The notes under the pieces are model-generated. The model saw only the letters and a program-made list of their open reading frames with translations. It was not told the origin of the DNA and did not search any database. A DNA stretch of 64,000 bases. Origin: Actinoplanes sp. M2I2. GTDB lineage: Bacteria; Actinomycetota; Actinomycetes; Mycobacteriales; Micromonosporaceae. The translations under genes and the position numbers were made by a program. Positions within the stretch are counted from its first letter, which is position 1. Each line of letters starts with the position of its first letter. Of this stretch, positions 56,915-61,048 are shown in pieces. The DNA is taken from positions 1 through 64,000 of the forward strand of contig NZ_JALPVJ010000018.1 of NCBI RefSeq assembly GCF_023544445.1. Direction: 5' to 3'.

Positions 56915-58735
56915 CTAGCCCGCTGCTCGATACGCCTTCCCGGCCTCGGTGGGGCTGTCGCCGTCGCGGTAGAGCCCGAAGTCGGCGCTGTCGCCCACGG
57001 CGGGCAGGCCGAACCAGGCGTACCGCTCGACGTACGACCGCTTCTGCAGGCCCTTCGTGGTGCCCTGGATGAAGGTGACCAGCTGACTCTGGGTCGGGTA
57101 CTTGGGCGAGCCGCTGAAGTTCATCAGGCCGTACTCGGTGACCCAGATCGGCTTGCCGTAGCGCTTGTGCACGGCGTCGACGTAGCCGAGGAACTGATTC
57201 ACCGCGGCGGGCGAGAAGTCGGAGCCGTACCAGTGAACGGTGATGAAGTCGACGCGGTAGCCCTTCTGCTTGGCGCCGGTCATGAACCGGTCGAGCCAGC
57301 CACCCTTGGTGTCGCCGCCGAAGGCCACCGCCGGGCTGCCCAGACGCCGGCCGGTCGCCTGGAGCTTGGGCCAGTCGCCGAGCGCCTGCTCGACGGTCAT
57401 GTTGGCCTGGCCGGCCATGTCGGGCTCGTTGAAGCCGAGGAGGACGTCGCCTTCCTTCTTCGCGTCGGCCAGGGTCGCGTCGGTGACGTCCTTCTGGCCC
57501 CAGATCATCGGCACGAACTCGACGTCGGACGGGCCGGGCATGCTCCGGTTGTTCGACGACCAGTTGTAGTACCAGCCGGCGCCGACGTCGTCGAGCGCCG
57601 GCTTGGCCTGGGCGAACTCCCAGACGCCGACACCCTTCTTCTTGCTCGCCTTGGCGGTGACCACCACGGGCGCCTTGGTGGTGGGCTTCGGCTTGGGCGT
57701 GACCTTCTTCGAGGGGCTGGGAGAGGGGCTGGGGCTGGGGGACTTCGTCGTCGGCGCCACGGCCCGGGGCGTCGTCCTCGGCGCGACCACGGCCGCGGTG
57801 GCCACCGGCGGCGGATCGGGTTGCTGGGTGACGACGACCGCAGCCGCGCCCCCGGCGACCGCGGTGGTCGAGAGCGCCGCGGTGAGCACCTTGCGGGAGA
57901 GACTGAAGCCGACCTTGGCCGCGAGGTGCTTCGCGGTGATCGTGGTGCCCAGTTTGGCGGCCACCGCACCCTTGCCGAGCAGCCCGGCCGGCAGCGGCAC
58001 CAGCGCCATGCCGGCCAGCAACCGCTCGGCGGCGACCAGCCCGTTCCAGGACGGTGAGCAGTGCCGGCACTCGCGGGTGTGCCGGGCGATGCGCTTGCGC
58101 CACAGCGGGCTCGGCCGCCTGTCCCATTCGACGAGAACTGCCTGCAGGTCGGGGCAGGGCGGGCTGGCGGTGAGTGCCCGCACGACGACCCGGGCTGTCT
58201 CGAGCTGGCCCTTCATCCGCTGGATGCGCACCGCGGCGTGCTGGCGGGTGACGTCGGTGGCAGCGACGATCTCGTCCCGGGTGAGCTCGCCCGAGGCCTC
58301 CAGCCACCACAGCGACAACAGCTCCCGGTTGTCCTCGTCGAGCCAGCGGGTCGCCTCGGCGGTCTCGCGGCGCTGACCGCTGAGCTCGAGCCGGGTGATC
58401 GCCAGGTCGGTGAAGTCGGCCCCGGGGTCGCGGACGTCCTCGTGCAGCAGCGCCTCGGGGGCGCCGCGCCGGGCCCGGAAGCGCTCCCGCACCTGACGCA
58501 CGGTGATCGCCACCAGCCACGACCGGAACGCCTCGGGCTCCCGCAGGTCACCCAGGTTGCGCAGCACGCGCAGCATGACGTCCTGCACCACGTCGTCGAC
58601 ATCGGCGTGACCCTCGAGCGCCCGCCCGACGATCGTGTAGACCAGCGGCAGATAGCCGGCGACCAGCCGGTCGATCGCCACCGGATCACCGGCGCGCGCG
58701 GCGATCACGACCGCGATGTCGGGTTGCTCCGCCAT
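56915..58735 (-). CDS. ECF sigma factor fused to zinc anti-sigma motif, TM helix and extracellular glycosidase
   Basis: 606 aa. Residues 20-90 form sigma-70 region 2 (LVYTIVGRALEGHADVDDVVQDVMLRVLR) and 128-190 region 4 (LTRDEIVAATDVTRQHAAVRIQRMKGQLE). At 219-226 HTRECRHC is a HxxxCxxC zinc anti-sigma motif. A hydrophobic helix (about 283-303) follows, then a Ser/Pro/Lys linker (304-365), then a Glyco_hydro_cc/GH128-like TIM-barrel (368-606) with FNEPD (Glu437) and WVTEYG (Glu534), the acid/base and nucleophile pair. GH128 enzymes cut beta-1,3-glucan. The layout puts the sigma domain inside and the glycosidase outside. ATG at 58735 with AAAGG upstream. Actinobacterial ECF groups with glycosidase tails (ECF52/53-type) have been described, but function is unknown. 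Confidence 0.9.
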   Translation of the reverse strand: MAEQPDIAVVIAARAGDPVAIDRLVAGYLPLVYTIVGRALEGHADVDDVVQDVMLRVLRNLGDLREPEAFRSWLVAITVRQVRERFRARRGAPEALLHEDVRDPGADFTDLAITRLELSGQRRETAEATRWLDEDNRELLSLWWLEASGELTRDEIVAATDVTRQHAAVRIQRMKGQLETARVVVRALTASPPCPDLQAVLVEWDRRPSPLWRKRIARHTRECRHCSPSWNGLVAAERLLAGMALVPLPAGLLGKGAVAAKLGTTITAKHLAAKVGFSLSRKVLTAALSTTAVAGGAAAVVVTQQPDPPPVATAAVVAPRTTPRAVAPTTKSPSPSPSPSPSKKVTPKPKPTTKAPVVVTAKASKKKGVGVWEFAQAKPALDDVGAGWYYNWSSNNRSMPGPSDVEFVPMIWGQKDVTDATLADAKKEGDVLLGFNEPDMAGQANMTVEQALGDWPKLQATGRRLGSPAVAFGGDTKGGWLDRFMTGAKQKGYRVDFITVHWYGSDFSPAAVNQFLGYVDAVHKRYGKPIWVTEYGLMNFSGSPKYPTQSQLVTFIQGTTKGLQKRSYVERYAWFGLPAVGDSADFGLYRDGDSPTEAGKAYRAAG

Positions 58736-58902
58736 TGTCCAGCCTTTCGTGAGGCGTTCCCAGCCTGGCCTCAACCGGCCACGGGAGAGGAGACGCCCAA
58801 GCCGCCCATGGATAACACGTTTTCCGTCGAGGATCGGATGAGGTGGTACTCCACCAGCCACGATTAGGCCTCCGATCGAGCGGGAATCAAGAGGCCATGC
58901 GT

Positions 58903-59289
58903 ATGACAGTCCGGCTGGATCTGCCGCGGGAAGCGGACAGCGTGCCCACCGTCCGCCGGTTGCTGCGTTCCGCGCTCGCCGTCCTGCACATCGACAACGA
59001 GGCCCAGGACGATCTCGAGATCGCGGTCACCGAGGCCTGCTCGAACGTCGTGCGGCACGCCGGCGGCGCCGAGATGTTCGAGGTCTGCCTGGACGTCGCC
59101 GAGAACCACTGTTCGATCGACGTGCGCGACAACGGCGCCGGCTTCGACCCCGACCAGGTCGGCCCGGCCGGGCCCGGCAGCGAGAGCGGGCGCGGCCTGG
59201 CGCTGATCAAGGCCCTGGGCGAGAACGTCCGCATGCACTCCGTGCCCAAGCACGGGAGCTTGATCCACTTCGAGAAATCGTTCGCGTAG
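58903..59289 (+). CDS. RsbW-like anti-sigma / ATP-binding kinase
   Basis: 128 aa, GHKL ATPase fold. LEIAVTEACSNVVRHA is the N box, DVRDNGAGFDPDQV the G1 box and SGRGLALIKALGENV the G2 box, as in RsbW/SpoIIAB serine-kinase anti-sigma factors. The ATG at 58903 is chosen because AGAGG lies eight bases upstream; ATG 58897 has the site only two bases away. Starts divergently, 167 bp from the fused sigma gene. RsbW proteins normally bind SigB/SigF-type factors and phosphorylate an anti-anti-sigma partner; none is adjacent. Confidence 0.88.
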   Translation: MTVRLDLPREADSVPTVRRLLRSALAVLHIDNEAQDDLEIAVTEACSNVVRHAGGAEMFEVCLDVAENHCSIDVRDNGAGFDPDQVGPAGPGSESGRGLALIKALGENVRMHSVPKHGSLIHFEKSFA

Positions 59290-59377
59290 ACCTCGTGACA
59301 CAGGCCAGGGAGCAGGCGCTTATGATGCTTGCTCCCCGGCAACTACTGCCCGTGAGCGTGGGAGAGGGAGAGAGCGA

Positions 59378-60520
59378 GTGTCCGTACGCCCGACGTCCGC
59401 CGGCTCCTTCCTGCGCGCCGCGCCGCCCGACCGCCTTCCCGAGGCCGCAGCCGAACACCTGCGCACCTGGTTCCCGGTCGACACGGTGGAAGTCCTCCTG
59501 AGCGACCTGACCGTCACCACCCTGTGGCCGGTCCTCGGTCCCGAGACGCCGGCCGGCGGCCCGCTCGAGCTGCGATGCTTCGGCAGCCAGCAGCCGGTGA
59601 CCGACAACAGCTCGGGCCGGGTACTGCTGCCGCTCACCACCTGGGGCGACCGGCTGGGCGTGCTGCGGCTCCGGCTCACCCGCGCGCCCGACGGCGACCT
59701 GATCGCCGAACTGGCCGCCGTGGCCGACGAGCTGGCCGTCGCGCTCCGCGCCGCCGACAAGGACACCGACCGCTACCGCCAGGTCGTCCGCCGGCAACGC
59801 CTCACCATGGCCGCCGAGCTGCAGTGGGAGTTACTACCCGGGCGCTCGCTCGGCGGCGAGAGGTTCCGCCTGGCCGGTCAGCTCGAGCCGGCGTACGCCA
59901 TGTACGGCGATCACTACGACTGGTCGCTGACCGACAACCGGCTCACCCTCACCGTGCTCAACGGCCACGGCGACGGCATCGAGGCCGCCCTGCTGACGAC
60001 CGTCGCGGTCAACGCCATGCGCAACGCCCGCCGCTCCCGCGCCAACATCGTCGAGCAGGCGGAGCTGGCCTCCGACGCCATCTACTCGCGGTACGCCGGC
60101 AAGGCGCACGTGGCCACCCTGCTGTTCGAGATCGGCCTGATCGACGGCACGGTCGAGGCGGTCGACGCCGGCTCGCCGCGAGCGCTGATCGCCCGCGACG
60201 GCGACATCCGGCCGCTCAGCCTCGATCAGCAGCTGCCGCTCGGCATGTTCGGCGACAGCCGGTACGAGACCCAGAAGTTCCAGCTCGAGCCGGGCGACCG
60301 CCTGCTCGTGATCAGCGACGGCGTGCACGCGGCGACACCGGGCGGCCGGGCCCCGTACGGTGAAGCCGGCCTCATCAGCGCCCTGCGCCGGACGCGCCTG
60401 CAACCACCCAGCGAAGCGGTCGGCACGGTGATCCGCGCCCTGCGCGACTACCACGCGGGCGTCGACCAGGAGGACGACGCCGTCCTGGTCTGCCTCGATT
60501 GGCTCCGCCAGACGGCATGA
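59378..60520 (+). CDS. SpoIIE/RsbU-type phosphatase with N-terminal GAF-like domain
   Basis: 380 aa. Residues 1-125 look like a GAF-type sensor domain (VDTVEVLLSDLTVTTLWP, LPLTTWGDRLGVLRLRL). The PPM-type phosphatase has YGDHYDWSLTD, LNGHGDGIEAALLT, VDAGSPRALIA, LLVISDGVHAA and EDDAVLVCL. Compared with typical SpoIIE domains, the Asp usually just before the GxG segment reads Val (VLNGHG), so one metal ligand may be absent. It would dephosphorylate an anti-anti-sigma protein and release a sigma factor. GTG with GAGAG-rich site upstream. Confidence 0.87.
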   Translation: MSVRPTSAGSFLRAAPPDRLPEAAAEHLRTWFPVDTVEVLLSDLTVTTLWPVLGPETPAGGPLELRCFGSQQPVTDNSSGRVLLPLTTWGDRLGVLRLRLTRAPDGDLIAELAAVADELAVALRAADKDTDRYRQVVRRQRLTMAAELQWELLPGRSLGGERFRLAGQLEPAYAMYGDHYDWSLTDNRLTLTVLNGHGDGIEAALLTTVAVNAMRNARRSRANIVEQAELASDAIYSRYAGKAHVATLLFEIGLIDGTVEAVDAGSPRALIARDGDIRPLSLDQQLPLGMFGDSRYETQKFQLEPGDRLLVISDGVHAATPGGRAPYGEAGLISALRRTRLQPPSEAVGTVIRALRDYHAGVDQEDDAVLVCLDWLRQTA

Positions 60521-60586
60521 TTCCCGTCGCCGCCGGGTAGGGGCATGGCGCAGCCGGGTACGTCCGACGAACGAGGTGCAGCCGCC

Positions 60587-61048
60587 ATGAACCGGGTCAC
60601 GGACCTCGCCGCCGCCGTCGAGTCGACCGTCGACGCGTTGGTGACCGTTCTCGGCGCGGCCGACCAGGCCCAGACCCCCAGCGTGCCGCCCGCGCAGCTG
60701 CGGGTGCTGGCCATCGTCGCGCAGAACCGGCCCACCAACATGAGTCGTCTGGCCGAGGCGCTCGAGGTCGTGCCGTCGTCGGCCAGCCGGCTGTGCGACC
60801 GGCTCGAAGCCACCGGCCTGCTGCGCCGGGTGCCCGATCCGCGCGACCGGCGTGAGGTGCGGCTGCTGCTCACCACCTCCGCCCGGACGCTGCTCGACCA
60901 GATCCGCGAACGGCGGCGGCAGGCTCTCGGCGAGGTGCTCGAGCGGATGTCGCCGGCCGACCGGCAGGAACTGGTGCACGCGCTGCGCTCGTTCGCCGAC
61001 GCCGCGGGCACCGGCGAGGACGGGACCGGCGCTTTGCGTACGGCTTAA
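60587..61048 (+). CDS. MarR-family transcriptional regulator
   Basis: 153 aa, winged helix: PPAQLRVLAIVAQ, TNMSRLAEALEVVPSSASRLCDRLEATGLLRR (recognition helix) and VPDPRDRREVRLLLT (wing), followed by a dimerisation helix (LLDQIRERRRQALGEVL). The ATG at 60587 has GAGGTG eight bases upstream; an in-frame ATG at 60545 is possible and also has a purine-rich site. It is the third plus-strand gene after the RsbW-like and RsbU-like genes. Ligand unknown. Confidence 0.88.
   Translation: MNRVTDLAAAVESTVDALVTVLGAADQAQTPSVPPAQLRVLAIVAQNRPTNMSRLAEALEVVPSSASRLCDRLEATGLLRRVPDPRDRREVRLLLTTSARTLLDQIRERRRQALGEVLERMSPADRQELVHALRSFADAAGTGEDGTGALRTA

Follow-up and report, generated by a model that had tools for sequence, protein, structure and literature searches.

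Groups ECF52 and ECF53 of the extracytoplasmic function (ECF) sigma factors are actinobacterial proteins described as carrying a C-terminal zinc finger, one or two transmembrane helices, and a carbohydrate-active domain (PMC8999054, PMC10766802). Some of them harbor predicted glycosyl hydrolase and carbohydrate-binding domains, for which validation was said to be missing (PMC10766802). One ECF52 protein has been characterized, SCO4117 of Streptomyces coelicolor. Its truncated form activates its own expression, which suggested positive feedback, and excision by an uncharacterized protease was put forward by the authors (PMC5826349). Here, we report the analysis of a 64,000-nucleotide stretch of the soil actinobacterium Actinoplanes sp. 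M2I2 (positions 1 to 64,000 of contig NZ_JALPVJ010000018.1; hereafter, the window), in which a single gene encodes an ECF sigma factor, a zinc anti-sigma (ZAS)-like segment, a predicted membrane helix, and a domain of glycoside hydrolase family 128 (GH128). We consider it probable, with clear reservations, that this single polypeptide is both a glycan receptor and a transcription factor: the sigma factor would be inhibited by the fused zinc segment, the outside GH128 domain would bind β-1,3-glucan, and proteolytic release would lead to autoregulation and to activation of further promoters.

The architecture itself is already known. Huang 2015 and Pinto 2019 are reportedly the sources for ECF52 and ECF53 proteins with carbohydrate-active domains, and Pinto and Mascher 2016 is said to be the origin of the ECF52 model. 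What is new here is the candidate promoter and the predicted regulon. The window protein has all the ECF52/ECF53 features listed above, as judged by architecture, and the initial annotation of this gene rightly stated that ECF groups with glycosidase tails of unproven function had been reported (PMC10766802). SCO4117 likewise combines a sigma factor, a zinc finger, a transmembrane helix, a Pro-rich linker, and an outside carbohydrate module in one chain of actinobacterial origin (PMC5826349, PMC8999054), and the mechanism proposed below matches the ECF52 model in outline (PMC5826349). In contrast, SCO4117 has a carbohydrate-binding module outside, where the window protein has GH128 and its two catalytic Glu, and the motif reported for SCO4117, CSGYN-17-SRHA (PMC5826349), differs from the TGTTATC-N15..17-GTCYCC motif described here.

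The SigI/RsgI biomass sensors of Clostridium thermocellum share with the window protein an outside sensor, a transmembrane helix, and a sigma-binding part inside the cell, the RsgI sensors bearing GH10, CBM3, CBM42, or PA14 domains on anti-sigma factors (PMC12203970). These sensors consist of two polypeptides with a self-cleaving periplasmic domain (PMC12203970), whereas a single chain with a ZAS-type anti-sigma segment is found here. Between residues 90 and 385, no domain, and hence none of the RsgI type, was recognized by Pfam at E values up to 1. RsgI proteins thus appear to be a functional parallel rather than members of the same family. The SigW-RsiW pair (PDB 5wuq) also involves a zinc anti-sigma factor, and the sigma shape predicted here is nearest to this bound form. 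SigW and RsiW are separate proteins, as opposed to the single chain of the window. To our knowledge, that pair includes no outside enzyme. No report of a GH128 domain joined to this type of sigma factor, or of this promoter, was found in the open-licence literature, partly judged by titles. With a candidate promoter, a few predicted target genes, and crystal structures close to the enzyme domain, the function of an ECF-glycosidase fusion becomes amenable to simple reporter and binding tests.

Architecture of the fusion protein

The minus-strand frame (56915-58735) is uninterrupted from the ATG at 58735 to the stop codon and encodes 606 residues. An alternative GTG start further upstream would lead to 648 residues; the ATG is favored because numerous relatives align from residue 1 and because it is preceded by GAAAGG. 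Each of the elements that the initial annotation had named on this chain, from the sigma factor and the zinc anti-sigma motif to the membrane helix, the linker, and the glycosidase, was recovered in the intact frame (Table 1).

Table 1. Features of the fusion gene and of its upstream region in the window.
Feature	Residues	Position	Strand	Basis
Fusion gene, ECF sigma - ZAS - transmembrane helix - Pro/Ser linker - GH128	606 in total	56915..58735	(-)	Open reading frame, Pfam, PDB matches
Candidate ECF autoregulatory promoter, TGTTATC-N16-GTCTCC (-35-like, 58811-58817; -10-like, 58789-58795)		58789..58817	(-)	Upstream alignment, pattern search
Ribosome-binding-site-like stretch, GAAAGG		58743..58748	(-)	Sequence
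ECF sigma part (TIGR02937)	20-180 (region 2, 24-90)	58196..58678	(-)	HMM
ZAS-like anti-sigma segment (C194, H219, C223, C226)	186-245	58001..58180	(-)	Alignment; helical in AF2 model
HTRECRHC motif	219-226	58058..58081	(-)	Sequence
Predicted membrane helix, positive on N side	284-302	57830..57886	(-)	Kyte-Doolittle
Pro/Ser/Lys linker (conserved Ala-Ala 314-315 just past the helix)	304-362	57650..57826	(-)	Composition, alignment
GH128 catalytic domain	363-606	56918..57649	(-)	PF11790; PDB 6uaq and mutants; AF2
Predicted catalytic Glu in NEP	437	57425..57427	(-)	24/24 of A4; aligned with Ala of 6uat
Predicted catalytic Glu in TEY	534	57134..57136	(-)	24/24 of A4; aligned with Ala or Gln of 6uas and 6ufl

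Sigma regions 2 and 4 had both been read from the sequence in the initial annotation. Region 2 matched PF04542 (residues 24-90, E of 1.9e-13, 50.4 bits for a cut-off of 24), and the sigma70-ECF profile TIGR02937 spanned residues 20-180 (60.4 bits for a cut-off of 42.9). The N-terminal part is therefore an ECF sigma factor by two profiles above their cut-offs and by the presence of region 2. Region 4 had no separate Pfam match in the window protein. The HxxxCxxC motif announced at residues 219-226 is present as HTRECRHC, and C194, located 25 residues ahead of H219, was added as a fourth putative zinc ligand. Alignment A2, which comprises 81 rows, shows no variation at any of the four residues, and their arrangement, C-X24-H-X3-C-X2-C, is the pattern of ZAS domains, the final three ligands forming HxxxCxxC.

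Residues 1-250 were modeled with AlphaFold2 (AF2) from 38 sequences (mean pLDDT of 78.5, pTM of 0.67). The ZAS segment was helical in this model, with a block pLDDT of 75-94 across residues 191-240. The best Foldseek matches were SigW with its zinc anti-sigma factor RsiW (TM-score by target of 0.76-0.79, root-mean-square deviation of about 6) and CnrH with CnrY (0.74), in comparison to 0.36-0.44 for ECF sigma factors bound to RNA polymerase. The predicted shape is thus compact and resembles one known inhibited form. In the full-length model (mean pLDDT of 62.8, pTM of 0.40), pLDDT values were 47-63 for sigma region 2 and 27-37 for the linker.

The hydrophobic helix expected near residues 283-303 corresponds to the best suitably placed 19-residue window, 284-302 (Kyte-Doolittle score of 1.75; 1.56-2.63 across the 24 GH128-type members). 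The mean net charge in these members is +2.8 over the 15 residues preceding the helix and -0.7 after it, and the mean value before the helix is +7.3 in relatives with a CAP outside domain. The predicted topology is positive-inside, with the sigma factor inside and the glycosidase outside. The Pro/Ser linker foreseen by the initial annotation follows the helix, at about residues 304-362, and its Ala-Ala doublet is a candidate site for a first cleavage. Ala-Ala occurs 5-20 residues outside the helix in 23/24 GH128-type and 37/46 CAP-type members, as compared to 4/24 and 6/46, respectively, at 25-40 residues. The doublet is found alike at both places in AbfB paralogs (21/33 and 17/33). This enrichment is weak evidence for cleavage since the linkers are rich in Ala.

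The glycosidase was identified by PF11790 (glycosyl hydrolase catalytic core; residues 385-602, E of 1e-52) and by its nearest solved structures, 6uaq, 6uas, 6uat, and 6ufl, which align with the entire domain (E of about 1e-80; 4.3e-81 for 6uaq). The columns of E437 and E534 are occupied by Ala or Gln in the mutant chains 6uat, 6uas, and 6ufl. The claim of a GH128-like barrel with Glu residues in NEP and TEY contexts thus holds, by sequence family and by alignment of both Glu with the mutated positions of solved structures. N436, P438, H501, W502, and Y503 are also invariant (24/24 of A4), and the block pLDDT of the AF2 model is 82-98 over residues 411-540 and 551-570, and lower in the rest of the domain. 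Whereas 6uaq and its mutants are crystallized enzyme domains, their counterpart here is preceded in the chain by a sigma factor and a membrane helix. We take 6uaq to be the enzyme named AmGH128_I. AmGH128_I belongs to subgroup I of GH128, a family of retaining β-1,3-glucanases with two catalytic Glu (PMC10956234). The domain of the window protein probably hydrolyzes β-1,3-glucan.

Ratios of nonsynonymous to synonymous substitutions (dN/dS) were computed for 23 pairs of genes and values are reported for 10 of them. In these 10 pairs, the ratio stayed under 1 for the sigma part, the ZAS segment, and the GH domain; maxima of 1.1 and 1.4 were obtained for the linker and the surroundings of the helix, respectively. 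The sigma part had the lowest dN/dS among five segments in each of eight Actinoplanes-group pairs (0.06-0.19, versus 0.19-0.45 for GH128); the two distant pairs gave 0.29-0.41 and 0.46-0.58, respectively.

Candidate promoter and predicted targets

Alignment of the regions upstream from the fusion gene revealed TGTTATC and CGTCTCC standing out amid diverged sequence, Micromonospora, Sanguibacter, and Asanoa included. The spacing of TGTTAT-N16-CGTC is that of ECF promoters. An exact match to TGTTATC-N15..17-GTCYCC precedes the fusion gene in the window, in 23/23 GH128-type relatives, and in 20/20 genomes of the genus, the last two being overlapping rather than independent samples; the reversed pattern used as a control gave 0 matches in those 20 genomes. 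Four genomes of other genera each contained one exact match, which always preceded the fusion gene. The motif was also recovered de novo, by enumeration of pairs of 6-mers and 4-mers without a preset pattern, three base shuffles of each set providing the null. TGTTAT-N16-CGTC was present in 17 of 24 GH128-type upstream regions and GTTATC-N17-TCTC in 33 of 46 regions of the CAP-type sister group, for null values of 2-3 in both cases. The best pairs in AbfB paralogs (4/33, null 2-3) and in members with a β-helix (4/13) were made of other words.

Allowing for 0, 1, or 2 mismatches, the motif was found upstream from 24, 43, and 46 of the 46 CAP-type members, respectively, in comparison to 0, 1, and 1 of 13 β-helix members, 0, 0, and 2 of two DUF4185 members, and 0, 1, and 1 of two members with an unrecognized domain. 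No match within two mismatches was detected for AbfB (0/33), Lcl_C (0/3), GH99 (0/1), or members devoid of an outside domain (0/2), the scan covering 124-206 bases upstream from the genus paralogs, so that more distant sites would escape. Use of the same promoter by non-CAP paralogs was dismissed on these counts, within the stretch scanned. The motif appears to track the sigma clade, as expected for a promoter read by that sigma factor.

Of the 39 exact matches in the 20 genomes of the genus, 20 precede the fusion gene and 19 lie elsewhere. The latter were located before genes for BTAD regulators (11 sites), glucanase-like GH16-ricin proteins (4), DUF1996 proteins (2), and an alginate-lyase-like protein (1), the remaining site (L224) having no assigned gene. 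The BTAD regulator, which consists of about 1,100 residues, was assigned by Pfam in the genome from which the window originates, and ten of the 11 are 60.6-91.4% identical to it. There, the BTAD gene is the first of a run on one strand that continues with genes for a sugar-binding protein, for a GH2 enzyme containing two AbfB stretches, for an ABC ATPase, and for two permeases. Among the ten other genomes with a BTAD site, five keep this whole run and a sixth retains the binding protein, as far as its contig extends.

Full-length GH16 orthologs were found in 20/20 genomes of the genus. Eleven of 23 GH16 genes had the motif with at most two mismatches at a shared place, -96 to -104 (4 exact, 2 with one mismatch, and 5 with two, including that of the window genome). 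Shuffled upstream regions had such a match at any position in 1.4% of the cases; the 11 sites are not independent events since the orthologs are related. Two further GH16 genes (L320 and L325) had three mismatches at the shared place; L325 has its match within two mismatches elsewhere, so that 12 GH16 genes have such a match at any position. DUF1996 genes were preceded by an exact site in two genomes and by a one-mismatch site in three. The GH16, DUF1996, and stand-alone GH128 proteins are predicted to be secreted, as judged by eye from their N-terminal ends.

The genus genomes contained 66 one-mismatch sites, of which 64 were examined (G013:C13 and G013:C17 were left out). Three of these sites precede GH16 genes (L251, L252, and L268), three precede DUF1996 genes (L227, L259, and L260), and one precedes L269, which encodes a weakly pectate-lyase-like protein below the Pfam cut-off. 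The reversed pattern gave 18 one-mismatch matches in the same genomes. By a rough coding test, 24 of 60 one-mismatch sites would lie within a frame, but genuine upstream sites, that of L251 among them, received the same verdict; in the window genome, two of four one-mismatch sites fall within likely genes.

Two additional observations were made at these sites. A perfect palindrome, GGTTCCGGAACC, lies in the GH16 promoter spacers of L209, L210, L218, and L219, where it might serve a second regulator as an operator. In four genomes (L273, L285, L293, and L299), a site of the form TGTTNTC-N16-GTCTCC starts 34-35 bases before the coding sequence of a small, membrane-protein-like product of about 172 residues, which may mark another target or the promoter of another sigma factor.

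Proposed mechanism and rival explanations

According to the mechanism that we favor, the N-terminal ECF sigma factor would be kept inactive by the zinc anti-sigma segment fused at its C-terminus, and a single membrane helix would take the chain outside, where the GH128 domain, carried by a disordered linker, would bind and probably cut β-1,3-glucan, for example of fungal walls. Engagement of this domain would expose the juxtamembrane stretch to stepwise proteolysis, by a site-1 protease and then by an intramembrane protease. The zinc segment would still be attached to the sigma factor following cleavage in the membrane, and a further step, such as trimming or zinc loss, would therefore be needed to remove or undo it. 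The freed sigma factor would activate TGTTATC-N15..17-GTCYCC promoters, including that of its own gene, in a positive feedback. Its other targets would be the BTAD regulator, together in several species with the sugar ABC transporter and the GH2-AbfB enzyme, the GH16 glucanases, and the DUF1996 protein. The sequences show the architecture, the conservation of the motif and of the catalytic and zinc residues, and which genes the motif precedes; from these, we infer the identity of the ligand, hydrolysis, inhibition in cis, proteolytic release, and use of the motif by this sigma factor. The protein may thus let the cell sense a polysaccharide directly. If so, one protein would do the job of two-component or sigma/anti-sigma pairs, and its outside domain might be exchanged to build sensors for other polysaccharides. 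The initial annotation had proposed an extracellular glycan as the signal. Support for this proposal is indirect and comes from the candidate promoter before the fusion gene, the GH16 genes, and the BTAD regulator heading the sugar-uptake/GH2 run in six genomes.

Several observations weigh against this mechanism. With respect to the sigma and zinc parts, the Pfam zinc finger (zf-HC2) was unmatched in the window protein (E up to 1) and was detected in one relative only, L152, below cut-off (16.7 versus 22.2 bits). The anti-sigma-bound forms SigE-RseA and AlgU-MucA matched the model of residues 1-250 at just 0.45-0.48, and the pTM values of the two models are such that docking of the ZAS segment onto the sigma factor cannot be claimed. 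As for the promoter, it was absent within two mismatches from L035, an Actinotalea sequence assigned to the GH128 clade by its sigma part, and the motif alone is not indicative of glucan because CAP-type relatives share it with a different outside domain. Concerning the targets, four of the ten other BTAD genomes lacked the sugar-uptake run in the stretch examined, the enzyme of that run bears AbfB domains, which are not suggestive of glucan, and ten of the 23 GH16 genes had no near-match at the shared place. The window genome had exact sites only before the fusion and BTAD genes, its DUF1996 site having one mismatch and that of one GH16 gene having two. Its other full-length GH16 gene (C6) and its stand-alone GH128 gene had no site within two mismatches, and the latter was rejected as a target on this basis.

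The same receptor might switch its sigma factor without cleavage, by a conformational change or by pulling on the linker, the sigma factor acting from the membrane or the zinc segment releasing it reversibly. Conformational activation has been proposed for other ECF sigma factors with C-terminal extensions, and the linker is modeled as disordered by AF2, but proteolytic control is expected for ECF48, ECF52, and ECF53 in the same review (PMC8999054), and the preference of Ala-Ala for the stretch just past the helix fits, weakly, with a first cut. We regard release without cleavage as unlikely. An equally low likelihood is given to a signal consisting of another glycan, such as an arabinose-containing polysaccharide, or of wall damage, the GH128 domain then serving as a wall- or glycan-binding module. 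The GH2 enzyme with two AbfB stretches encoded behind the BTAD gene would suit this possibility, as would the finding of exact GH16 sites in just 4/20 genomes; BTAD regulators and DUF1996 proteins are not known to be specific to glucan. Against it, many GH16 enzymes also cut β-1,3-glucan, and the conservation of both Glu and of the five other invariant residues of the GH128 domain in 24/24 members would be unnecessary for pure binding. In addition, β-1,3-glucan is the substrate cleaved by GH128 enzymes (PMC10956234).

The protein might also be a glucanase anchored in the membrane, with a relic sigma part that is inactive in transcription, as the evidence for sigma function comes from sequence alone. 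This explanation, which we hold to be very improbable, was rejected since dN/dS is lower for the sigma part than for any of the four other segments in each of those eight Actinoplanes-group pairs and since the clade of this sigma part shares the candidate promoter. Finally, a frame fused by an assembly error or a chimeric pseudogene can for practical purposes be set aside. The check for a split frame revealed none, and the fusion is intact in the 20 genus genomes searched, 19 of which gave matches running through (the match in G003 was in two high-scoring segment pairs and yet corresponds to a single 622-residue frame), as well as in four loci from other genera. The dN/dS ratios under 1 given above for its sigma, zinc, and glycosidase parts also speak against an artifact.

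Relatives, neighbors, and outside domains

Named relatives bearing the GH128 domain comprise 19 Actinoplanes-group loci, Micromonospora phaseoli, Sanguibacter suaedae, and two Asanoa. In 19/19 Actinoplanes-group loci, the fusion gene is followed on the same strand by a luciferase-like gene and is preceded by divergent genes for an RsbW-like HATPase, a SpoIIE phosphatase, and MarR (58897-61048 in the window). None of these four neighbors was found within about 5 kb in the four loci of other genera.

Outside domains were assigned by Pfam and inspection to 127 distinct members (A2 and A3): CAP in 46, AbfB in 33, GH128 in 24, a right-handed β-helix in 13, Lcl_C in 3, DUF4185 in 2, and GH99 in 1; two members had an unrecognized domain, two had none, and one was cut at a contig end. 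The wider genome scan contributed the best 80 of 454 confirmed relatives, and the census of seven named domains on the same core therefore leans to near relatives. Six sequences were excluded from A2 for frame breaks (L041, L071, and L087) or contig ends (L090, L092, and L093), and L035, also at a contig end, was kept and labeled 'truncated'. Among the paralogs listed for the genus, 46 were included, with the exclusion of weaker matches and broken sequences (for example, G013:C11, G019:C3, and G013:C24). Eight of the 34 plasmid records with a match were examined; L010, L011, and L012 had tails of CAP-like appearance and are not in A2, and L014 is a stand-alone enzyme.

In a tree of the sigma-ZAS core, built by a quick method with SH-aLRT support only and containing several long branches, the outside-domain labels required 11 changes for 10 labels with the truncated row and 10 changes for 9 labels without it, as compared to a mean of 69 for shuffled labels. 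The small number of changes indicates that outside domains were rarely swapped and then inherited with their sigma factor, a signal to which near-copies among the members contribute. Our tentative view, on which we stop just short of an even chance, is that the window protein represents GH128 in a plug-in family of membrane sigma receptors. In the course of evolution, one sigma-zinc-helix core would have received seven or more named outside domains, and each of them would since have been passed on along with a sigma lineage of its own. The lineage with GH128 would then be a direct glucan-to-promoter switch acting on itself, on the BTAD regulator with sugar uptake, and on glucanases, perhaps for detecting fungi.

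The window genome also encodes two tandem AbfB-type paralogs and a stand-alone GH128-ricin protein, whose GH part is 65% identical to that of the fusion. Rarer arrangements were observed elsewhere. The sigma-ZAS-helix core is followed by Lcl_C (L118, L128, and L132), DUF4185 (L152 and L156), GH99 (L116), or an unrecognized outside domain (L117 and L086), all in the genus of the window except L086, from Catenulispora. The sister paralogs L154 and L157 end without an outside domain, after 306 and 269 residues, respectively. In L041, L071, and L087, the frame is broken ahead of the outside domain or inside it, which may reflect sequencing errors or real decay. The contig of the Actinotalea sequence (L035, 3022-4074), whose sigma part falls in the GH128 clade, ends ahead of the outside domain. 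A plasmid-borne Streptomyces member (L015, 3956-6802) combines a β-helix outside domain with a second hydrophobic stretch near its C-terminus.

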